From positions 429,444 to 493,443 of the forward strand of contig NZ_CP006745.1 in the NCBI RefSeq assembly GCF_000510265.1: 64,000 nucleotides of DNA, read 5' to 3'. The position numbers were made by a program, and so were the translations under genes. The notes below the pieces were generated by a model, which was not told the DNA's origin, made no database searches, and worked only from the letters and a program-made list of their open reading frames with translations. Every line of letters begins with the position of its first letter. The first letter of the stretch is position 1. The stretch comes from Candidatus Endolissoclinum faulkneri L5. GTDB lineage: Bacteria; Pseudomonadota; Alphaproteobacteria; Thalassobaculales; Thalassobaculaceae. Below are positions 1,900 to 62,124 of this stretch, piece by piece.

Positions 1900-4205
1900 A
1901 TTCAGGTTATAAGACTCAATATATTTGTTTACGGATTGTATTTTTAAGGTTTTTTATATCTATATCATGCATACAGTGTGGTTTTTATTTTTTCTTTTAT
2001 AATTTTTTATTCTAAAATATTTAATTCAATATTTTTTAATATAACAACAGGTTATTTAGATAAGATTGTTAATGATAAAGTATTTTCCTGGGGCTGCATT
2101 CTAGAGATTAATTAGCAAATCTAAAAAATTCTGCTTTAAGTAAAATTTGATCGCTACTGTTATTCAATAAAATATTTTAATTAGTTTGTTTTAGGAGATT
2201 ATTCTCTTATTTTTATTAATTTAATTTACAATTACTTATTTTTATTTAGATGTTATGGAGTATTAGTTGCCTATATTATATTTCAAATTTTAGGTAATCT
2301 ATAAGATTGAGCTATTAATTTTGGTATTACGTAAAGATTTTGTAATTCATGGTCTATAATTACAAAACATTTCAAGAAATAAATATATTTGAAATGCCAG
2401 TATAACCACTTCATAATTAGCTTTTTTTGATTATGCTATTAGAATTAATAGAAGCCATAATTACAGAATAATTTTTATTATAGTCTTAACGCTAAGAATG
2501 TTCAAATTAAGTGTTAAAGTTGATTATCTTAATTGATTTGATAAGCAACCTAATTCTATTAGAACAAAAAGGTATATCTAAGTGCTTTCAGCACCTTGAA
2601 ACTAGCAAAACGATGCGGTCGAATTAATAAATTTAGTTTTTCTTCTCATTTCCTTAATTATGCACCAGTTAGTTGCGCAGGGCTCTTTATTGTTTGATAA
2701 TATAATCAAGCGAGATGAAGTATAGTTGACTTTTAATTTGTTTTTGTCCCGCTTTTGTTCGATAGGGCAAATTTTATTTGCCCCGATTGCTGTTGTTTTA
2801 GAATTGTTACTTGGTTATATAATTTGACAGGCACTATCAGATTTAATTATTTGGTAGAATCCGCTATGGAATACAATAAAAAAGATCAGCGTTTTATTCT
2901 TGAGAAGTCAGCTATATACTTAAACTTATAAAGTTACCTTTTTACGCTTCAGTATCATCCTAATATTCGTTGTAGTTGTAACTAGCAAGATGTTTTTTAT
3001 ATAAAATGTTGTTCTGATACCATCAAAGAATCACTGCTGCCATGAACATGGTCTAGCATTATTATTTTAGTTGGTTTTTAGCTTTGGGCATGTATAAAAG
3101 AACGTTGGTTAATTTATATACTGGCGTTATGCTAACAGATTGTTAGATGTGTCTCGATTTTTTTGAAAGTGGTATTTTCGTAATTTTAATTAAATTTTAA
3201 GGAAAATACTATATTGCGATTTTTAAATCAAGACAAGGTAAAAGTGGGTTTTAATTTTATATCAATGCTAGTAGCATTGATATTGTTGTGCAATTTCCTT
3301 TCAGGATATTACGTGCAATAAAAACATTTTTGGAATATTCAAGACTATCTGGCTACTGAGGTATATGTTGGGGTATCATGCAATTTATCTTAAAGATTTA
3401 TATCTATAAAAACTTTATCTAGGTGGTTATCTAGATGCTCGTTATAAAAGTAATGGGGGTATTACGAGTTATGGATGTGATAGAAGCGAAAAAAGTAGTT
3501 TTCAATAGAAAACAACCTAGTTATAAGACTGTTCTCGTCTATGAGACTATAGTTAATTCACGATTTAGCAGTATTAAAAAAATTAGTGTATCGCATCGTT
3601 TAAAACCAACAAATTTATTATGATAGTTGTCTTTTTTAGCTTCGGCGTAAAAATTAAATATTTACTAGCTTACGCATAAGGTATTTGTAAAACAAATAAG
3701 TCGCTGTTATTCTGATCCATTTTTACGAACGCTAAGTTTATAGTTTTGTATATTATCAATAGGCAAATAGGATAAATATATTGAGTTATTAATAAGCTAA
3801 AATTTGTTTTGTAATCCAGGAAAACATTGCGCATTGTATAAATTATTTGGGATATTAGTGATACTTTTGTTGATTTTTATCAGGAAGTGATTTTAATTTC
3901 TTGTTACTCCCTAGTGGATCAACGTGAGATTTCTAGACTGGAAGAATTTCGGTGATTAGAATCTCTAACTCATTCGTGTTAATCAGATTAACTTTTTTGA
4001 ACAAGACGCCCAGCACGTATCGTGCCAGATTATACGCCGCGCCTTTATCTTAGAGATTTTACACAGTGTATTATGAATTACGATAGAGACGTATTCTAGT
4101 GTGTTATGTTTCCTGCCCGAGCTGAAGTTTTGTTACGTAATCGACAGCTTGGATCTATAGTCATTTTTTTGCAGTTGTTGCGACGCGATACGGAGTTACC
4201 AGCGT

Positions 4206-9263: not shown

Positions 9264-9563
9264 TATTCATTTTTGTTTACTGTACTCATTTGCATGAGTG
9301 CTTGGTATAGTATTTTGTTTGCCGAGACACTTTTTGAGTTTGGCACTTAATTTATTACTTAATCTAAATTCATAGTACTATACGATCAGCACATTAAGAT
9401 ATAAATCTTATAGTAATTGCTAGTTGTTTAACATTGATATTAGCTTGAGCTTTTCTAAAAGCTGTTAACTAAGTTAAACTGTCTTTGCTTGCTTATTAAG
9501 ATTAGGCGTAGCGTAAGGCTAGTGAAGAGAATAAGTTATTTTTAAATAGCTACCTTATAATAG

Positions 9564-10644
9564 CTATGCAATCGCAATTATAAGGTAATTAGCGTTATTG
9601 CTGATGAAATTGACTACATTGCCAGCGATCATTGAGCTCAAAAATAAAATGCTATCGATTCTGTTGCTAAAGCCTCTATGCTTATGGCAATTGTTGGAAT
9701 TGCTATAGAGTTTGTGAGTAGTCGTGGTGATATAGGTGCAGCAATTGCTATGAGCAGATAGTCGGTTTCGCTTAGCAGTTTTATGAAATATATACAAGAA
9801 TAGGAATCGATAGCTGATCAAGCGGGAATGCGGTTTCTTGATGCTATTTATCAATCAGCTGGGGGATTACAATTGTTTTTTTTAAACACATGATATCTAA
9901 GAAAACGCCTTATTTAACTCGACTTATTTATCTACACACTCATTTATCAGGGATCGCCTCAAATCAATCAAAGCACATGTTATTATATCTTCATATTCGA
10001 ATCTGAAAGCGATAGCAAAGCAGATTATCGATTTCAATCGATTACTTGCGAAGCTTCATGGATTTATTTTGCTTACCTTCTCAGACATTGCACAATATCC
10101 GGAAACTGATAGTGGTTTGCGTGCTAAGTTAGCTCGTGCAATCTTTTATCTTAAGATGCTGGATTATAAGCATTCGCTTGCACTAACGCTAGAGATAATT
10201 TAGGAATTATCCTCAAGATCCTTCTCTGTATGAATCAGAAAGTAAGATTTTTTTGAAAAGCAGGCAATAACCAAAGCTACGCTGGCGCCTATGCTTATGG
10301 AGCAAGAGCTAGCTCCAATGTAGGGTTGATTGAAGTTTTTATCGCAGCAAATTTTTTGGTAATAAAAGATTACGCTGCTAGCAGGAGATTATGCTTCACT
10401 TGCAAAAAATGTCAAGCCTTCTGAAGGTGATTTTCCTTTTTTGTGGCATCAATTGGCGATTGCTCAAGGAAAACTTGCTAATATCGCTGAAGCTGTAGTT
10501 TCTATAGCAGAGAAAGTCGTGAGTAACGATAATTGGGAAGATGGCAGCTATTCAAGCAAATCGTGTACAAAAAAGCTAAAACCTGCTAAACCTATGATGC
10601 TGAGAACGATAGCGATTGAATCGCTTGCAAAAAAGCATGGCTAG
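9564..10644 (+). pseudogene. Decayed M48-family metallopeptidase with TPR tail
   Basis: Plus-strand translation shows the ghost of a BepA/M48-type periplasmic peptidase. From 9594 the frame reads VIADEIDYIASDH where the family has VIAHETGHIAGGH, so both zinc-binding histidines of HExxH are gone. Then follow SRGDIGAAIAMS, a degraded copy of the membrane-proximal segment, ESIADQAGMRFLDAIYQSAG (family: QE..AD.A...YL...G) and RLLAKLHGFI with YPETDSGLRAKLARAIFY from the TPR-containing half. The end, WHQLAIAQGKLANIAEA, matches the family C-terminus. At least five in-frame stops and several frameshifts interrupt it, and no N-terminus or signal peptide remains. The 67-codon open piece at 10441-10644 is its last fragment. 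The intact DsbA-like gene follows 100 bases downstream, the usual neighbour of this peptidase in Rhodospirillales as I recall it. Confidence 0.85.
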
Positions 10645-10745
10645 TATAAAAGCAGAAAGCTACCTTAATGTCCATAGCTTAGACTAGTTGCAATCGTTAC
10701 TTTATAGCTAAATATAATCAATTGATTCTTGTTTTGGAGATCTGA

Positions 10746-33953: not shown

Positions 33954-34700
33954 ATGGAAAATCTGAAAATGGCTGGTCATTCTCAATTTAAGAACATTAT
34001 GTATCGCAAAGGAGCGCAAGATAAAAAGCGTGGCAAGATTTTTGCTCGTCTTGCATGCGATATTCAGGCCGCAATTAAAGCTGGTAGCGATGATCCATGT
34101 TCAAATCCAGCTCTTCGTAGCGCTATTATGTCAGCTCGCAGAGAAAATATGCCTAAGGAGAATATTGAGCGCGCTATTAGAAATGGTTTTTGTGGTGGTG
34201 ACAATGTAAGCTGGCAGAATGTTTGCTATGAGGGCTATGGACCAGGTGGCGTAGCTCTGATTATTGATGCATTGACTGATAATCGTAATCGTACTGCTTC
34301 AGAAATGCGTGCTGCTTTTAGCAAATTTGGCGGTAAATTAGGTGAAACTAATTCGGTTTCTTTTATGTTTAATCGAGTTGGTCGGATTGTGTATCCTGCG
34401 GATATCGGTAGCGCTAACGATGTGCTAGAAGCAGCGATTAACGCTGGTGCGGAAAATACCGAGAGCTCGCAAGTTTCGCACGAGATCGCTTGTCATGTTG
34501 AAGAATTTAATATAGTGCTTGAACTTTTACAATCTACATTCGGCAAACCTCAGTCAGCAGGGCTAGCATGGAAACCATTAAACAAATTGGCTGTGGATGA
34601 TGAACATGTTGTTGCTCTAATTAAATTGTGGAAGCTTTTGAAAAGCAACAATCATGTACAGCAACTTGCCGCAAACTTTGACACTACTTTAATTGTATAA
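33954..34700 (+). CDS. yebC: YebC/PmpR family protein
   Basis: Conserved three-domain protein once annotated as a transcriptional regulator and more recently linked to translation of difficult (proline-rich) sequences. 248 residues from ATG 33954; the family start MAGHSQFKNIMYRKGAQDKK is at 33969, and GGAGG at 33946-33950 lies only three bases before the first ATG but 18 before the second, so the start is undecided. DIQAAIKAG, ARRENMPKENIERAIRNG and YEGYGPGGVALIIDALTDNR are family hallmarks; the C-terminal third is more divergent than usual and slightly eroded. In relatives ruvCAB follows directly; here 2.2 kb of non-coding sequence does. Confidence 0.93.
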   Translation: MENLKMAGHSQFKNIMYRKGAQDKKRGKIFARLACDIQAAIKAGSDDPCSNPALRSAIMSARRENMPKENIERAIRNGFCGGDNVSWQNVCYEGYGPGGVALIIDALTDNRNRTASEMRAAFSKFGGKLGETNSVSFMFNRVGRIVYPADIGSANDVLEAAINAGAENTESSQVSHEIACHVEEFNIVLELLQSTFGKPQSAGLAWKPLNKLAVDDEHVVALIKLWKLLKSNNHVQQLAANFDTTLIV

Positions 34701-36939
34701 TTTTTATTGTTTCGGAATATCGAATGCGATCTTAGATACTAAGAATTAATCAAATAATTTTTACCTTTTATTTAGTGACCCTTTTTAGGAGTTAAGTTTA
34801 TTTATAGTTGTTTTATTCTGGCGTTATATCCAAAACTAAGCTTTTAGCGCTATTTGCTAGTACTTAATGATAATTTTTTATTTTAAACTCGAAAAGTTAA
34901 TTCTTACTGAAAGGTAAATATTTTTATTATCCATAAGGAGAGAGAACTTTCGATGTTCCTAACCCCTATAATCGATCTTTATATGTTTGAAGATTTTTAC
35001 CCGATTATAGTAATCTCTTAATTTTATTATTACTCGTATTACAGTAATATTTCTTTATAAGAAATATGATCAAAACAAAATGCAGTTTCGCGATAAGTTT
35101 TTGAAGATATTAATGTAATCTTATCTACTGCTGTATTATTTATTTAGCTAGTGCTATAGTAAGAAATATCTCTTAATTAGTAGTAATTAATTTTGCTTTA
35201 TTTCTTATTAAGCTTTAAAAAAAAATAATGTTTAACTAAAAATTATTAAAATAACTTCATTAGGCTTATCGCTAATCAAGATTAAGCAATCTCTAAACTA
35301 GAAATTGCAGATTACACAACTAATTCATTGAATTTTTATTCTGCTGATCGATCCACTACATAAGTTATATAATTTAATATTTGTATATCTAAAAATACAT
35401 TAGTATAGAAGTATTTTTACTTATGTTTTGCGACGGTAATTTTATTGATAATGTTTGGCGTTTTCAATTTCATATTTAGACTTACTCTTAAAATAAGAAA
35501 GATTATTTAGCGACAAGAGCGTGAACTGTCTGCATTCTACCATGTTGCAAATAATTAAGATTTAATGTGCTTGTTTATAGCAAGCTCTAAGATTATTGTA
35601 ATAAAAGGTATTTTGATAAAATTGTTAGTTTTAATTGTTTTCTTAGCGCAGCGGAAAGTTGTTATTGTTTGCATAGGCTAATAAGTATGTTTTGCTTTAT
35701 GTTCTTTATATGCAGTGCATTTGATCAACTTTGAATAATTATTTTTAATTAAATGCTTAGCTATCAATAGTAAAACAGAGAATGTAATGTTGCTTTTATA
35801 TTACAGTATTGCTATTAATGAGAAATAAATATTTAATTATCATTACAGATAGTTTTGAATGTTTAAAAATTTTTAATTACATTGAGCAGCAATTTCTTTA
35901 AGAATATTTTATATTTTAAGCGTATACGATCAGTTTATTATAAAAGATAATTTTGTTTTATTATAACTTGACAATTAAGTTAACTATAGTTTGGTGTGCT
36001 AGCACTGCTATATGAAAATGATCGCAAAAGCGATTGCTGCAATTTATAATTTTTAGATACTTTCCACGGTAAAGAAAATTTAAGATCGTATGATAAAAAT
36101 AAATTATTTAGCTAATATTTGACATGAATATTAATTACGCAACTTATAAAAACAATTAAGCCGTCCAATTTTTGCTTGGTGCTTTCATAGTCTGAGTAAC
36201 TATGGAAATACCGACCAAATTTTATTATTGGAATGCTATTTTATAGAAAAGTAATCTTGGTAAATATTACTAAAGACGAAAGAAATGCATAAAATTATAT
36301 ATTTTTAGAAAAATTCTATTTAATTTTTAACAAAAATCTATGCTGCATTAATCTAGATTAATTCAATATTTTTTATCATGTATTACTTACAAAAATAATC
36401 GTTTATTTTAAGCAACACTTTGCTGTGAAATATTCCAGCACTAATTTCCCTACTAACATATATTATGCTATTAGCTAAAATATAAAAGTTTTATGTAAAT
36501 TTTTTGATTTTCAGTTAACTAACAGCGGCACAAGTGAACTTTAATCAATGTCAGTCTAAAAATCGTTTAGATTGTTTAATAGGAATGCGATAAATATACA
36601 ATCTTCAATAAATATAATTTGAGATTATGGCGAATGGCTTGATAGCAGATAAATTGTGATACATGTCAACATCGATTCTGTTATCTTTAATACATTAGCA
36701 TGAACTGTTTAGTGCTTTTTAGTTGGCCACAGAGATCATAATGTTTACGCAAAAATAATAGGATAAAAGATTATTAGGATAAAAGATTATCAATTATTTA
36801 TTAGGGGATTATTGGCTATTCTACAGCAATCAGCTTAATTAGTCCAAAATTTATATTGGCGCTGGTAGTGTTAATATTTATAATTAAAAAAAATTATAGA
36901 TATCCAACTATGATCTGCGTAAAGGGGGGCGCAGAGACG
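34701..36939. other. 2.2-kb spacer where ruvCAB is expected
   Basis: In alphaproteobacteria the order yebC-ruvC-ruvA-ruvB-ybgC is common. yebC and ybgC are intact at the two ends, but no ruv frame, P-loop or other fragment can be read on either strand between them. The length (2,239 bases) is close to the combined size of ruvC, ruvA and ruvB, so this looks like a gene-dead locus eroded mainly by substitution. A 16-bp near-perfect duplication is at 36760-36791. Confidence 0.55.
36760..36791. repeat. 16-bp tandem duplication before ybgC
   Basis: AGGATAAAAGATTATT (36760-36775) is followed by the same sequence with a final C (36776-36791). Confidence 0.85.
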
Positions 36940-37365
36940 ATGTCTGAATCATTCCGATTTTCTGTCCGTGTATATTACGAAGACACTGATGCAAGTGGAG
37001 TAGTGTATCATGCAACTTATTTGCATTATGCAGAACGTGCACGTACGGAGTTTTTGCGCACTAAGGGGATCGAACAACGCGTAATGCGGAAAGTAGAGAA
37101 CTTTGCCTTTATGGTTCGCCGTTGTACAGTTGATTATCGTGCTCCAGCGCTTTTAGATGATGCACTTGAAGTACTTACTCGTTTTACATTTGCACGCGGT
37201 GCTGTTTTGAAAGTAGTGCAAGAAGTGATTAGACGTGGAGAAAGCAAACCGCTTGTGGTGATAGATCTAGTTATTGCTGGAGTAAACGAACGAGGAAGAC
37301 CAGTGCGGTTGCCTCAAAAAATATGCGATATGGTTATTAGAGCTAATCAGTCTAAGGAATTATGA
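36940..37365 (+). CDS. ybgC: YbgC acyl-CoA thioesterase (Tol-Pal associated)
   Basis: Hot-dog fold thioesterase of the 4-hydroxybenzoyl-CoA thioesterase family, normally encoded with tolQRAB-pal. From ATG 36940 the protein has 141 residues and starts MSESFRFSVRVYYEDTDASG; the catalytic Asp is D17 in DTDASGVVYHATYLHYAE (D18 in E. coli). The run of six G bases at 36924-36929, 10 bases upstream, serves as ribosome binding site; the longer frame from 36856 adds 28 residues unlike the family. C-terminal RPVRLPQKICDM is normal. Its partner genes tolQRA/B are missing here, yet its catalytic sequence is intact, which suggests a Tol-independent role in lipid metabolism or very recent loss of partners. 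Confidence 0.92.
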   Translation: MSESFRFSVRVYYEDTDASGVVYHATYLHYAERARTEFLRTKGIEQRVMRKVENFAFMVRRCTVDYRAPALLDDALEVLTRFTFARGAVLKVVQEVIRRGESKPLVVIDLVIAGVNERGRPVRLPQKICDMVIRANQSKEL

Positions 37366-39812
37366 AGAGATGTTTAGTTTAAGAAAATTAAAAATAATTG
37401 CTAAATTGATTGCAAACAAACTATTATTTGTAAGATGTTGAAGTTAGTATTCTGACTTGTGAGTATTATGCTTTAAATATAAAATTTAATTTTCTTGTTT
37501 AGTTGTATTAGGTATAAGCTGCTAGCTGAAAAATTCTATTCTACGTCTATTCTATTAGTCAGATTGATTTAAATTAATATTTTTAGCAATATAATAAAAC
37601 ATAACAACCAAATGATTATTTTGATTGTTATGTTTTGATCGGCTATTTATAGCATTAACAAATCAGACGCTGCATTTTATTAATTTAAAATCATCTTTAG
37701 TTACTTATCATGCAAGAATAAGATTCTAATGCTTTGTTCTAAGTTATTAGCTTTTATTATTTAAAAGTTCAGTAAAAATTGCTTATTGCAACTGGCTTAG
37801 CCTTTAAGCTATTTTTATTTGATTATAGCTAACAAGATAATATTCAAATAGAGAAATCCTCTAAAAGTGTTATTTTTTCTTTGATTGCTTAAAAATAAAA
37901 ATAGTACGCTAAACTATATATTCAAATCTTGATTTATTTATAGATACGTTGAACTATAAGAGCTGAGAATCATAATTAATAGATGAAACGAAAAAAAGAT
38001 TTTGTACCGAAGAATAGGTATATTAGTGGTTTAACGACCAAGCTTAGCTATGAAATAGCGTATTTAAGAACAATAGCGCACTTGCTTGTAAGTTTTATAG
38101 ATATTTTACAAATCACTGTATTATTATGTGTTTACTGCAATAAACCTATACTTTTTTGATCATAACTTTAAAAAGAATAGTTGAGATTATTGTAATATAT
38201 TTTGCTTTTAAACTTGTTTTAATTGTAGGTATAACAGTGCTATAATCTTCTTATTGAAAATATTTTTTCTTCCTAATCGGAGTTAATGGATGACTTCATG
38301 AAGATCTTCTGCTACTTGTTGAACCTTTAAGATTAAATAATAAAGCTTTTTGACTAATTAGCTGTTTTACTTAAGTAGCTGTAAGCGCTAATGAATTAAT
38401 CATTACCGCCTCCTTTCTTCATAAGTCTCCTGCGATCAGATTATCAGCAACAGTACTTAATAAGTTTAATCATTTTAAAACTTTATTCTCATCGTCATTA
38501 AAATAACAATTTTAGTATCTGTCATTTTGACGGATACTGCTTGATGAATGATATAGTACTAATTTTCGTAGTTTGGGGATTAGTATCTATTAAGTAAATT
38601 TATGCGATAAAGTAATCTTACTAGTTATCACGATATAAGCTTTAAAATATTATATTGAAAGTTACTTAGTATGTAATTCTTAATATGAAGATTAGTTTAA
38701 TATCCTTAGGTTTTATTATTTTTTTGATCTAGCTTAAACACTTAAAAGTTAGCAGAATTTAATTGCTTAAACTTTTAGGAAGTTTTAGCTGGATAGATGT
38801 ATTGTTATGTCATCAATTATTAAGTAAAATTTTTTATAGTGTCATTTTAATAGTGTTATATAGATTTTTATACAGATAGTGGATTTTTATATAGTTATAG
38901 TGTTTTTTATTTAATTTAGGTTATATTAAGTGTTATATTTATAGTGTTATATAACTATATTACATGAGCTCCTTGCTTTAAGGAGAAAGCTGACCTTGTA
39001 TTGTTTGGATGATTATTTCACAATAAGAAACTTCTTTACGAAAGAAGCGCTATATTAAGAACAGCAATTGTTATTTAGCTTTTAAGCATTGTGCTGTAGA
39101 AGCACGATCTGCTTAATCTTGATGTCAACTTTTTTACTCTTAATGTTTAAGTAGGCTTTTAAATATCGTATTTCAGCATAGGCTATGTGAGCTATTTTTG
39201 TTTTAATTAATCGGAGCTGATCTGGTTTTGTTTCTGTTAAGATAAATTAGTTTTGGATTTTTTCTATTATTACGTTATGTCTATTGACAAGCTTCGTGAA
39301 TAGTGACTTATTAAATAATGGTGACTTAATAATTCTTGTGGAAGCTATGAGTTATGCGGTCTAAGATTTCGCTTTTGCGTATTTTATATAGTGCGAAAAG
39401 TATTTGCTCCAATTGGCTCAATGTATTACAGGTTGTATAGTGATTGGTTTAGCCATAATTATGTAGTTATATATATGTTACATAATATATACGTTACATA
39501 ATATTATGTAGTTTATAATATATTATGTAGTTATATATTTTAAATATGTTTATATATATTTATAAATATATTTATAAATATATATTTTGGTATACGTTTT
39601 TTAGAATTTCGCTAAAAACCTTAAGTATTTTTTTTGGTCGGTCTTTAAAGGAGCTGCTAAAGATAATTTTAATGGTTAGATTAAGGTTAATTCTGTGAAA
39701 TTTGGTTAAACGATTTGCGGTTTTTTTTTGGGTAAGCTTTGGCTTTGAAGATAGCAAATTAAGTCTCAAACTTTGAAGCAAGCTACCGCAGAATTCTTCA
39801 AAGGAGCTAATA
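37366..39812. other. 2.4-kb spacer where tolQRAB is expected
   Basis: ybgC and pal normally flank tolQ, tolR, tolA and tolB. None of these can be recognised in any frame. The interval holds a hairpin at 37596-37636, a run of ATAGTGTTATA-like repeats at about 38830-38960 and extreme low-complexity AT sequence at ~39455-39590 made of ATATTATGTAGTT/TTACATAATAT elements. A minus-strand frame across the pal start is only its shadow. Confidence 0.55.
37596..37636. terminator. Hairpin downstream of ybgC
   Basis: AAAACATAACAA (37596-37607) pairs exactly with TTGTTATGTTTT (37625-37636); the stem continues inward with one mismatch. About 230 bases after the ybgC stop; no U-tract beyond the arm itself. 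Confidence 0.45.
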
Positions 39813-40325
39813 TTGATCATGCGCATAAAATTTCTCAGCATATTTGCTGCAGTATCGCTGCTTGCTGCTTGCGAAACCGCACCCACTGAGACCTCGAATG
39901 TCGAATCGACTGGAGTAAAGACGGATGCTGTTTCTACATCCCCTTCAAATCCCACTACTATAGTCCCCGGCAGTTCGGAAGATTTTGCTGCTAATGTTAC
40001 CGATCGCGTTTTTTTTGCATTTGATAGTTTTTCTCTTGACGAGAAGGCCCGCCGAATCCTTAAAAATCAAGCTTCCTGGTTACGCAAATATCCAGCCACG
40101 ATGGTTACGCTAGAGGGGCATTGCGACACAGTTGGTACTCGCGAATATAATATGGCCCTAGGAGAGCGTCGCGCTAATGCAGTTAAGGATTATCTTATTT
40201 CTTTGGGCAGTGATCCTAGTCACATAACAACTACCTCTTATGGTGAGGAACGTCCAATTAACAAGGGGACAACTAAGAAAGATCAGGCGGCTGGAAATCG
40301 TCGTAGCGTTACTGTAATTAATTGA
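39813..40325 (+). CDS. pal: Peptidoglycan-associated lipoprotein Pal
   Basis: Outer-membrane lipoprotein whose OmpA-like domain binds diaminopimelate in peptidoglycan. 170 residues. N-terminal signal with lipobox LLAAC, then a low-complexity Thr/Ser/Pro linker (~22-55) and the OmpA_C domain: VFFAFDSFSLDEKARRIL, EGHCDTVGTREYNMALGERR with the peptidoglycan-binding Asp and Arg, and TTSYGEERP. The frame opens with TTG at 39813, six bases after AAGGAG; an ATG two codons later (39819) is the alternative. The Tol proteins that normally recruit Pal to the septum are not encoded here, so it may act only as an envelope tether. A strong hairpin follows. Confidence 0.95.
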   Translation: MIMRIKFLSIFAAVSLLAACETAPTETSNVESTGVKTDAVSTSPSNPTTIVPGSSEDFAANVTDRVFFAFDSFSLDEKARRILKNQASWLRKYPATMVTLEGHCDTVGTREYNMALGERRANAVKDYLISLGSDPSHITTTSYGEERPINKGTTKKDQAAGNRRSVTVIN

Positions 40326-40361
40326 TAATTTTGCTTCTGCTTAAGTTCTACTTGACGTTAT

Positions 40362-40406
40362 GATAAAAGGATGAAATTTTATTTTAGATTATTTCATCCT
40401 TTTATC
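40362..40406 (+). terminator. Pal terminator, perfect 16-bp stem
   Basis: GATAAAAGGATGAAAT (40362-40377) and ATTTCATCCTTTTATC (40391-40406) pair perfectly around a 13-base AT-rich loop, starting 37 bases after the pal stop. T-rich sequence (TCTCC) follows. Confidence 0.7.
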
Positions 40407-40514
40407 TCTCCAATAGGCATTCTTGCGGTGGTTTTTATGTTATAGACTGATTTGCTAACTGGTAATAACATTTATTTGTGTGCTGGATGGTATGCGCAAA
40501 AGCTATGATTAGTG

Positions 40515-40571
40515 ATTATTTAAACAATATCTAAACCTTAATTCCTAAGGTTTAGATATTGTTTAAATAAT
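40515..40571. repeat. Perfect 26-bp inverted repeat, 5-base loop
   Basis: The left arm (40515-40540) reads ATTATTTAAACAATATC then TAAACCTTA; the right arm (40546-40571) is its exact reverse complement, with loop ATTCC. There is no T-tract on either side. This is the largest perfect hairpin in the window and follows the pal terminator by about 110 bases. It could be a bidirectional terminator or 3'-end stabiliser, but no mobile-element end or coding context explains it. Confidence 0.9.
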
Positions 40572-40770
40572 GTTTCTGTTATGTCTAAAGTTTTTTCATC
40601 CTAAGATGTATCTTCTCATCTAAGATGTAGCATGGTTAGTTGGGAGGGATTACACAATTTACTGCTAAATTTCTTAAAAAATTATTTTTAAGGAAAAACT
40701 TATTTAGACTAGAAATGGCCTAATTGGCAATGTTTTAGTCAATTAGCGGTATTGAGTAGTTTGTTCTTTT

Positions 40771-42144
40771 GTGAAAGAAGACTTTTCTCTAAGTCATGCT
40801 CCGTTGCATGATATCGATGCGATCGAATTGTTGGACATCGTTATGGCTGATGATCTTGATCTATATGGACCAGTTGCTTTAGCTGTTTCAGGTGGGCCTG
40901 ACAGCACAGCTCTATTGTATTTTGCGGATCTTTGGGCGCGGCAAAGAAAAAGGAAATTGTTAGTACTTACAGTAGATCATTCTCTACGTCATGAATCTTC
41001 AAATGAAGCTGTTGAAGTTGCACGGAAGGTTGTGGCGATGGGGCATACTCACCGAGTGCTCACTTGGCGTGGGAATAAGCCAGCGACAAGAATACAGGAG
41101 ACCGCTCGTGCTATTCGTTTAACTCTGCTTTCTGAGGCATGTTATAATGCTGGTGCGAATACTGTGCTACTTGCACATCATCGTGAGGATCAGGCAGAAA
41201 CATTGTTGCATCGCATAAATTGTAACACTGGTCCAGAAGGACTCGCAGGTATGGCGCTGGTCACTTCGTGGAATGGCTTGCGGTTGGCTAGACCGTTTTT
41301 ATCTGTGCCAAAGGATAGACTTTTGGCTACTTGCCGGAAAGCCGGGATTGACTACATTACGGACCCATCTAATGAGGATTTGCGTTTTGCTCGTGCAAAA
41401 TTACGGCGCTTACGACCTGCTTTATCTGGGATAGGTTTAACGGTTGACCGTTTAACTCGACTATCTAATTCTATGAGTATCGCCCGTTGCGCTATGAGTA
41501 AGATAGTTAGTAACTGGCTGGCTCGTTATGCCGTGGTTTACTCTTGTGGTACTTGTCGGCTTGATCGATTAGCTCTGCAAGCTGAACCGGTTTATTTTAT
41601 TGTTATTATTTTGCGTTACGTGCTCAATATAGCGGGCGGCTGCGGTTATCCACCGAGCAGCGAGGCGATGACCAAGTTGATTGATTGGTTAACTGGAGAG
41701 TCAGCTGTATGGCGACGTACTTTGCGTGGATGTTTACTCCAAGTTGATAATGCTGATCTTATAGTAATGCGGGAAGAAGTTGCTTGTGCGCCGCCTGTGT
41801 TTATACGTCGTGGCCAAGTCAGATGTTGGGATGGCCGTTTTTTAATACGCAACAAGACGAATTGTACAATAAATGTAGGATCATGTGGTACGGATGGATG
41901 GCGTCGAATCAAATGTTCTAGATTAACTTTGATGCTATCTAAGGAATTGCGAAATCTACCTTACCCAGCTCGTATCGCTTGGCCTGTTGTTACTAATCTT
42001 GACGGATCAATTACTCTCCCCCACCTTGTGTCAAGCGAACAAGATGCACTGAAATCAAATAGTATTGGGGTGGAAATCTGTTTGATGTCTCTGCAGGCGC
42101 AAATGATCGTTGGCCTGAAGGTTAATGGAAAGCTAAGGATGTGA
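40771..42144 (+). CDS. tilS: tRNA(Ile)-lysidine synthetase
   Basis: Modifies C34 of the CAU-anticodon tRNA-Ile to lysidine so that it reads AUA; essential, and AUA is frequent in this AT-rich genome. 457 residues. The PP-loop ATPase motif is SGGPDS (40-45) in [25 protein letters not shown] and [17 protein letters not shown] are the further catalytic segments. The C-terminal substrate-recognition half is divergent, with long stretches hard to align, but uninterrupted. GTG start. The stop overlaps the ftsH start by four bases (GTGA), giving tight coupling with ftsH as in other alphaproteobacteria. Confidence 0.92.
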
Positions 42145-44078
42145 ATAATTTTGGTAAAAATATTGCTCTTTGGGTTATTATTGGCGTTTTGTGTGTAGCA
42201 CTGTTCAATCTTTTTCAAGGATCTTATTCGCACACTAGCCAGCGGACTCTAGCCTATTCCGAATTTTTGTCTGAAATTGAAAGTGGTCGTATTAGTCAGG
42301 TTGTAATTCAGGGACAAGAAATTTCTGGCCAGTTTTTTGATGGTAATACTTTTAGTACTTATGCGCCGCAAGATATTAATCTTGTTGCGCAACTTACCAA
42401 GTCCGGTGTACGGATTTCTGCGGAACCTCTTGAGAATGGTACTTCCGGATTTCTTCAAATATTACTTAGCTGGTTCCCAATGTTGCTTTTTATAGCTGTT
42501 TGGATTTTCTTTATGCGTCAGATGCAGGGAGGAGGAGGAAAGGCTATGGGATTTGGCCGAAGCCGAGCTAGATTGTTAGCCGAGAGAAGTGGGCGTGTTA
42601 CCTTTGACGACGTTGCTGGTGTTGATGAAGCAAAATCTGAATTAGAAGAAATAGTTGAATTTCTCAAAGATCAGCAGCGGTTTCGTCGATTGGGTGGCAA
42701 GATTCCTAAGGGATGTCTATTGGTAGGACCTCCTGGTACTGGTAAAACCCTTCTTGCGCGCGCAATTGCGGGTGAAGCTAATGTACCGTTCTTTACTATA
42801 TCTGGTTCTGATTTTGTTGAAATGTTTGTAGGTGTTGGTGCTAGTCGTGTTCGCGACATGTTTGAACAAGGTAAAAAGAATGCTCCTTGCATCATTTTTA
42901 TTGATGAAATTGATGCAGTCGGTCGTCATCGTGGTGCTGGAATGGGTGGCGGTAATGATGAACGCGAACAGACTTTAAACCAACTTTTAGTTGAAATGGA
43001 CGGTTTTGAGTCAAACGATGGTGTTATTTTGATCGCTGCTACTAATCGGCCAGACGTTTTGGATCCTGCTCTTCTGCGTCCTGGTCGCTTTGATCGACAA
43101 ATCGTCGTCTTAAATCCTGATATTCTTGGTCGCGCAAAAATTTTAAAAGTTCACATGCGCAAAGTGCCAATCGCATCCGACGTAGATGCACACACAATTG
43201 GACGTGGTACCCCAGGTTTTTCTGGCGCTGACCTTGCTAATTTGGTGAATGAAGCCGCCTTGTTAGCCGCACGTAAGGGCAAGCGCTTAGTTGGTGTTAC
43301 TGAATTTGAGGAAGCCAAAGATAAAGTTATGATGGGCTCAGAACGTCGCTCTATGGTCATGACCAACGATGAAAAAAAGCTTACTGCTTATCACGAAGCA
43401 GGTCATGCTATAGTCGCTTTGCATTGCCCGAATAGCGATCCTATTCATAAAGCCACTATTATTCCGCGCGGTAGAGCTTTGGGTATGGTCGTACGCCTAC
43501 CTGAGGGTGACAGGATATCATTATCACGAGCAAAGCTAGAAGCTGATTTGTGTGTTGCTTGCGGTGGACGTATTGCTGAATCCATTATATTTGGTTCCGA
43601 GCAGATAACTACTGGTTCTGCTTCCGACATTCGCATGGTGTCAGAGATGTCACGTCGAATGATTAGAGAATGGGGCATGAGTGATCAACTTGGCTTTTTA
43701 GCTTACTCGCCTGATCAATCTGAGATACTTTTGGGTCATTTAGTTAATCACCAAGCTAACGTTTCCGAAGCGACTGCTAACGTTATTGATAAAGAAATTC
43801 GCCGAATTAGTGATTGTGCCTATGACTACGCTACTCGAATATTGGAGAATAATATAGAAGATTTGCATGCTTTGGCTAAAGGCTTGTTGGAATACGAAAG
43901 TCTTTCTGGTAATGAGATTCAGGAGTTGTTAGCAAGAGGATCAATTAATCGTTCTTGCGGTCGTGATGAAAGCTGTAACAAGCCTAGCAACTCAGGTCTT
44001 CGTCGTAGAGCATCTGTGCCTACTGGTGGCAGTACTGGTGTTGCCACTACGACCACTAATAGTGCATATTGGACCTAA
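42141..44078 (+). CDS. ftsH: ATP-dependent zinc metalloprotease FtsH
   Basis: Membrane-bound AAA+ protease for quality control of membrane proteins and, in many bacteria, LpxC turnover. 645 residues. Two transmembrane segments (~6-25 and ~108-128) flank a periplasmic domain. The AAA module has Walker A GPPGTGKT (196-203), Walker [14 protein letters not shown] and the second region of homology [20 protein letters not shown]. The zinc site is HEAGH (418-422). The C-terminal tail is low-complexity (Arg, Gly, Thr, Ser). Starts with GTG inside the tilS stop. Normal length; no anomalies. Confidence 0.97.
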
Positions 44079-61597: not shown

Positions 61598-62124
61598 TCT
61601 AATCTCCGAGTTTTTGAATTTAGCCTATGGCTACCCGAAGCTTCAAAGTAACAAATTATCATTATCTAACTTTAAACCCCCGAAAAAAACTTACTTTAAA
61701 TATACTTAACAGTAAGATTAATATTATTAATTTAGCTAGCAACAATTTAGTCTTCTAGCAAATTAATGTAAAGTGAGCTTTTTCTTAACTAATATTTGTT
61801 TTGCATCAAGATCTAAAATGCTTCTTAATTTGATTAAGAATAGTAAATTAATAGAGATAAATGTATAATTTTATTGTAGCTTGCGCAACTAATAATGTAT
61901 CAGCAAAGCTAATATATATATACTACTTATGGAAGCATAGATGTAATTAATACAGATCTGTCCTTCAGTAATTATGCCTAACAGATTTTATATAGCAGTA
62001 TATAAAATCTGTTAGGCATAATTACTCTTAGAGCTTGATTTAATTATATCAATACGCTCTTAGTAAAACTATAGTACTATTTTTATTTTCTCTCGCTAGG
62101 AGAGCTGCAATCAATGTATCATCT
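61598..62124. other. 0.5-kb divergent spacer, purE/ribA
   Basis: Must contain promoters for both directions. Dominated by the 24-bp-arm inverted repeat at 61969-62024 and a small palindrome ACAGATCTGT near 61953. No FMN-riboswitch-like sequence was seen. Confidence 0.55.
61969..62024. repeat. Perfect 24-bp inverted repeat, 8-base loop
   Basis: The left arm (61969-61992) begins TAATTATGCCTAACAG and the right arm (62001-62024) is its exact reverse complement, ending CTGTTAGGCATAATTA; loop TAGCAGTA. It sits 100 bases before the ribA ATG between divergent genes, where a terminator is not expected. It could be a leader stem, a regulator site or a remnant. Confidence 0.9.

Follow-up and report, generated by a model that had tools for sequence, protein, structure and literature searches.

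Strain L5 of ‘Ca. Endolissoclinum faulkneri’, a tunicate (sea-squirt) symbiont with a shrunken genome, carries a partial Tol-Pal locus that probably lost its Tol part and CpoB before the separation of strains L2 and L5 and retained the genes at its two ends, which do not depend on the motor, with YbgC as a thioesterase and Pal as a fixed tether. The L2/L5 split has been estimated at 6-31 million years ago. The analysed window is a stretch of 64,000 nucleotides (bases 429444-493443 of the closed 1,518,636-base L5 genome, which has a completeness rating of 99.9%). Its gene order around the locus is yebC, a gap, ybgC, a gap of 2.45 kb, pal, a further gap, tilS and ftsH (Table 1), and L2 has the identical layout with ybgC and pal surviving and a gap of 2.2 kb. 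In a free-living relative of the same genus (G003) the ybgC-pal interval is 4.05 kb and consists of tolQ, tolR, tolA and tolB, with cpoB after pal. The gap in L5 contains no forward ORF longer than 58 amino acids, and the original prediction of two intact ends with unreadable tolQRAB between them at 37366-39812 is correct to within 6 bp; pal starts at 39819 with an ATG shared with relatives, and an in-frame TTG lies at 39813. An Rfam scan of positions 34000-43000 gave zero matches. The 2013 genome paper mentions neither Tol nor Pal (PMC3851785).

Table 1. Features of the ybgC-pal region of L5, in positions of the window.
Feature	Position	Strand	Evidence
ruvCAB position, eroded, upstream of ybgC	34701..36939	.	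order ruvC-ruvA-ruvB-ybgC in L125; without sizeable ORF
ybgC, acyl-CoA thioesterase, 141 aa, intact	36940..37365	+	profile matches, conserved columns, dN/dS
decayed tolQ-tolR-tolA-tolB remains, no gene	37366..39818	.	no notable ORF; tolQRAB here in relatives
TolB C-terminal trace position	39323..39460	+	homologous L2 block significant, L5 alone not
conserved tolB-pal spacer and pal leader with ribosome-binding site	39689..39818	+	aligned to L2 and to four relatives from the Thalassobaculum group
pal, peptidoglycan-associated lipoprotein, 168 aa, intact	39819..40325	+	profile matches, predicted fold, dN/dS
codon D103, Asp kept, predicted diaminopimelate-binding	40125..40127	+	invariant; corresponds to Asp71 of H. 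influenzae Pal and D271 of A. baumannii OmpA
codons 104-105, Thr-Val	40128..40133	+	Glu (93%) and Arg (99%) in 76 TolB-linked Pals
codon R118 kept, predicted second diaminopimelate-binding residue	40170..40172	+	invariant; corresponds to R286 of A. baumannii OmpA and R104 of E. coli Pal
cpoB position, eroded, nothing readable	40326..40770	.	cpoB between pal and tilS in relatives
hairpin after pal, probable terminator	40362..40406	+	16-bp perfect stem, z -6.0

Genome-wide absence was assessed by family-by-family searches of L5 and L2. The PF01618 family (TolQ, ExbB, MotA) has zero matches in both genomes and 1-6 per genome in 29 of 29 relatives, and TolB (TIGR02800), present in all 10 relatives tested, is likewise missing from both. 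For TolR/ExbD (PF02472) neither genome gave a credible match; a lone weak ExbD match (E 0.014) was rejected as a chance score inside IMP dehydrogenase. The TonB_Cterm model found no match in L5 or L2, but it also scores the TolA of relatives poorly and is hence insensitive. At the locus itself, TolA was found neither among the ORFs nor with frameshift-tolerant profiles, and CpoB is missing from its own locus, the pal-tilS interval in relatives. The original prediction had called for a search for the motor elsewhere, and in the closed L5 genome tolQ, tolR and tolB were not found, the TolA search being weak. From these sequence searches we conclude that the motor (TolQ, TolR) and TolB have been lost from L5 and L2: the Pal lipoprotein of a Tol-Pal system was recognised, and its proton-driven TolQ/TolR motor and TolB propeller were not. 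Since the TolQ/TolR motor is absent, a diverged TolA, even if retained, could not be energised.

The gap is what remains of a tol operon and does not represent another locus, since a TolB trace is found in L2 and the spacer and leader before pal are recognisable in both strains. Frameshift-tolerant profiles (averaged-BLOSUM and log-odds) gave only chance scores for TolQ, TolR and TolA in the gap of both strains, and those for CpoB likewise scored at chance level. A TolQ score of 46.2 in L2 was out of order and was gone with the log-odds profile, where this spot matched the TolB C-terminus instead. The L2 trace of the TolB C-terminus (NGPGVASRLYSVGL vs RGRGGSSRLYSIDL) is equalled by 5 of 1000 shuffles with the C-terminal profile, whereas in L5 470 of 1000 shuffles are as good with the same profile, which is not significant. 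When a second block further upstream (NHNLLVETMGYMA), spaced as expected, was included in a two-block test (L2 positions 9608-9747), none of 200 shuffles reached the score, an optimistic figure as the blocks were picked post hoc; for L5, 60 of 200 did. The L2 trace sits 254 bases before pal, where about 220 bases are expected from a relative, and the homologous L5 bases are 60-77% identical to L2. Identity between the strains reaches 78-83% over 39691-39805 in the spacer and leader, compared with about 53% gap-wide. An AT-rich palindromic stretch at 39488-39594 in the decayed tolB-pal region falls mostly in a gap of the L2 alignment, which probably means that it expanded in L5 or was deleted in L2.

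Other features of the window include a perfect 26-bp inverted repeat with a 5-base loop (40515-40571, fold z -10.8) in the pal-tilS gap, which is not visible at the L2 equivalent, and a perfect 28-bp inverted repeat with a 4-base loop in another intergenic gap (61967-62026), the longest of the perfect repeats detected across the window. A decayed amidase (2533-3196) and a decayed M48 peptidase (9521-10659), both intact in L2, coincide with L5 pseudogenes already printed (amidase from 431976, M48 peptidase 439025-440102; Table 2 of Kwan and Schmidt 2013, PMC3851785).

YbgC is 68-75% identical to its counterparts in Thalassobaculum-group relatives. It matches TIGR00051 above the cut-off and TIGR02799 just below it (E 6e-40), and it keeps 28 of 28 columns of at least 90% conservation in both L5 and L2, including the active-site core DTD-x2-GVV-x-H-x2-Y (DTDASGVVYHATY, residues 15-27). 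The protein is a cytoplasmic acyl-CoA thioesterase for which a role in Tol-Pal has never been demonstrated (PMC5479800), so the survival of ybgC needs no Tol-based explanation and is plain retained metabolism.

By synteny and sequence, the symbiont protein is identified as a Pal ortholog. It is 59-65% identical to Pal of Thalassobaculum-group relatives, matches PF00691 (E 5e-24) and just misses the cut-off of TIGR02802 (E 2.5e-35, 120.7 bits against 125.35), and it keeps the lipobox LAAC including the Cys as well as every one of the 18 columns that are invariant across 33 aligned sequences. AlphaFold2 predicts a confident OmpA domain with pLDDT mostly above 90, and solved Pal and OprF structures rank first when this fold is searched with Foldseek. 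The predicted diaminopimelate-binding residues D103 and R118 are 15 residues apart, the same spacing as between D271 and R286, which bind diaminopimelate in A. baumannii OmpA (PMC6572160). R118 is, by our own residue count, equivalent to R104 of mature E. coli Pal, which is required for peptidoglycan binding (PMC11559426). In H. influenzae Pal, Asp71 and Arg73 are named as the diaminopimelate-binding pair (PMC7391070), and V105 of both symbionts aligns with this Arg73. The original prediction that the key residues are kept therefore stands for the YbgC catalytic core and for Pal D103 and R118, but the nearly invariant R105 of Pal has been lost in both strains. L2 Pal additionally carries R117H, and an aromatic at position 156 is replaced in both strains.

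The conservation of Glu and Arg at 104 and 105 was derived from 76 reference Pals, each with an adjacent tolB. This pair is absent from general OmpA domains, and the OprF motif D-S-V-G-T resembles that of symbiont Pal, whose domain has OprF as best sequence match. Loss of E104/R105 was considered as a mark of TolB loss, but this is weakened by three cases that all have TolB (DSVGT in L051, DPIGT in G091, DSIGT in G173) and, conversely, by G130, which keeps DERGT and in which TolB was not found. As some TolB-bearing bacteria show such Pals, the change to T104/V105 cannot be blamed on the loss of TolB; as a lost TolB-related signature it is only a hint, and with three TolB-bearing relatives also lacking it, the Pal-typical E-R pair is not strictly defining.

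In E. coli, Pal has two alternative partners, TolB and peptidoglycan. TolB covers its diaminopimelate site and makes it mobile, and the removal of TolB by TolQRA lets Pal settle at the septum (PMC7066135, PMC7391070). We propose that the ancestral region ruvCAB-ybgC-tolQRAB-pal-cpoB-tilS-ftsH would have lost TolQ, TolR, TolA, TolB and CpoB before L2 and L5 separated, with the motor-independent end genes retained and YbgC presumably continuing as a cytoplasmic thioesterase. Pal would be expressed from its own leader, with transcription ending at its own hairpin. This hairpin is a probable terminator of the pal transcription unit: its 16-bp counterpart in L2 (z -7.2) differs in bases that still pair. 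A promoter scan did no better than shuffles. Pal would then acquire its lipid anchor and be delivered to the outer membrane; LolA, the carrier of lipoproteins to that membrane, is present in the genome. If a cell wall is present, D103 and R118 would bind its diaminopimelate, and since neither TolB would mobilise it nor TolA pull on it, Pal would stay where it first meets peptidoglycan and act as a static tether.

Only one OmpA-domain protein, Pal, is encoded in each of L5 and L2, compared with 11 and 13 in two relatives of the same genus, and L,D-transpeptidases (YkuD) number zero in the L5 and L2 genomes (G000, G005), against two per genome in these relatives. With the other OmpA-domain proteins and the L,D-transpeptidases gone, Pal is best read as a static tether, and the earlier suggestion that Pal acts only as a tether is to this extent the best supported one. 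On gene content, Pal is the last recognised link between outer membrane and peptidoglycan in the symbiont, which is known to keep most peptidoglycan synthesis genes and to form irregular globules. FtsZ was found in neither L5 nor L2, as already published (PMC3851785), and a loss of the division-linked role of Pal would fit this. It does not follow, as had been suggested, that septal constriction works without Tol energy: FtsZ is missing too, the cells are irregular globules, and a normal septum is not to be assumed.

Several observations bear on whether pal is maintained at all. It could be a slowly decaying leftover, not yet erased, like other genes of this low-density genome, which may be useless even if transcribed. 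The whole-gene dN/dS of pal between L2 and L5 is 0.293, the highest among 11 genes (with an interval that overlaps that of tilS), E104/R105 are lost in both strains and R117 in L2, and in globular cells the wall may be missing. The same dN/dS, and V105 in place of the peptidoglycan-binding Arg of H. influenzae Pal together with R117H, count against the static tether, as does the insensitivity of the TolA search. However, the excess is located in the linker (0.72), where a high value may be expected for a disordered segment. The OmpA domain (0.227) and ybgC (0.117) are under purifying selection, within the range of nine neighbouring housekeeping genes (0.087-0.246), so that the relaxed selection on pal and ybgC named in the original prediction as a sign of decay was not borne out. 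In addition, the rest of the operon was erased before the split, yet pal has stayed open in both lines since then, and its invariant residues, leader and terminator hairpin are maintained. Decay of pal therefore seems unlikely to us, though it deserves to be taken seriously.

It is rather improbable that Pal has taken on a new role or a new partner, for instance by stabilising outer-membrane proteins or by interacting with host factors, with peptidoglycan binding secondary. The replaced E104/R105 and aromatic 156 would agree with this, as would a domain resembling general OmpA-type domains as closely as Pal. On the other hand, D103 and R118, the diaminopimelate pair of OmpA-type domains in general, are invariant, domains of this type that lack E-R do bind peptidoglycan (PMC6572160), and direct evidence of another partner was not found. 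A still running Tol system whose motor genes have diverged beyond recognition could be imagined as symbiont proteins evolve fast and the search for the TolA family performs poorly on relatives as well. But Pal, OmpA and LolA are easily found, the locus is without ORF, and PF01618, TolB and a true ExbD match are all missing although the genes of the region are 78-92% identical between the strains, so this reading is highly improbable and close to refuted.

Compared with the Tol-Pal operons of the Thalassobaculum group, the symbiont locus shares the order of the end genes and the tolB-pal spacer, but the operon is complete in the compared relatives, whereas the symbiont locus lacks tolQ, tolR, tolA, tolB and cpoB. 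In Caulobacter the Tol-Pal complex is essential (PMC7327166). Buchnera and Rickettsia/Anaplasma have lost tol-pal completely (PMC12204202), likewise during genome reduction and intracellular life; in contrast to the symbiont, which retains pal and ybgC, pal is lost there too. Blochmannia, also a reduced symbiont with a partial tol-pal, shows the reverse pattern with six of seven genes kept and only ybgC missing (PMC4389277). The OmpA-type domains of OprF (5u1h) and A. baumannii OmpA share the fold and the D...R pair with symbiont Pal, and OprF also D-x-V-G-T, but these proteins are porins and symbiont Pal is a lipoprotein. The locus is thus a partial Tol-Pal loss, a variant of a known loss pattern and not a new system.

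In a survey of 290 Alphaproteobacteria, 11 genomes were without a TolB match, including both symbionts. Four of the nine others are without Pal too. The remaining cases were rejected: in G269, G270 and G101 pal is so close to a contig edge that the place of tolB is missing from the contig in whole or in part, in G054 the OmpA-domain matches are only weak, and the G130 assembly is fragmented and its pal has other surroundings. Judged by these matches, no sampled genome other than those of the two symbionts clearly has pal but not tolB. In G130 (1.4 Mb assembly, no TolB match) pal (L137/L163, G130:C30:7585-7890) lies outside a tol operon, near mur-type and sugar-biosynthesis-like genes; this could represent another lineage with Pal only, or the assembly may be incomplete. 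G056, G150, G219 and G278 (family f38) are 1.4 Mb alphaproteobacterial genomes without TolB and Pal matches, and another alphaproteobacterium (L139/L145, G270:C224) has a tandem pal pair after cpoB with the motifs DERGS and DERGT.

A wider picture, in which Pal would be a TolB-independent, OmpA-like static tether and the sole membrane-wall link of a cell that keeps most peptidoglycan genes and divides without Z-ring or energised invagination, is possible and we put it forward tentatively. The removal of the motor while Pal was kept by evolution suggests that tethering by itself can be reason enough to retain the gene, and the Tol motor joins the division functions that are absent from the largest FtsZ-less genomes reported.
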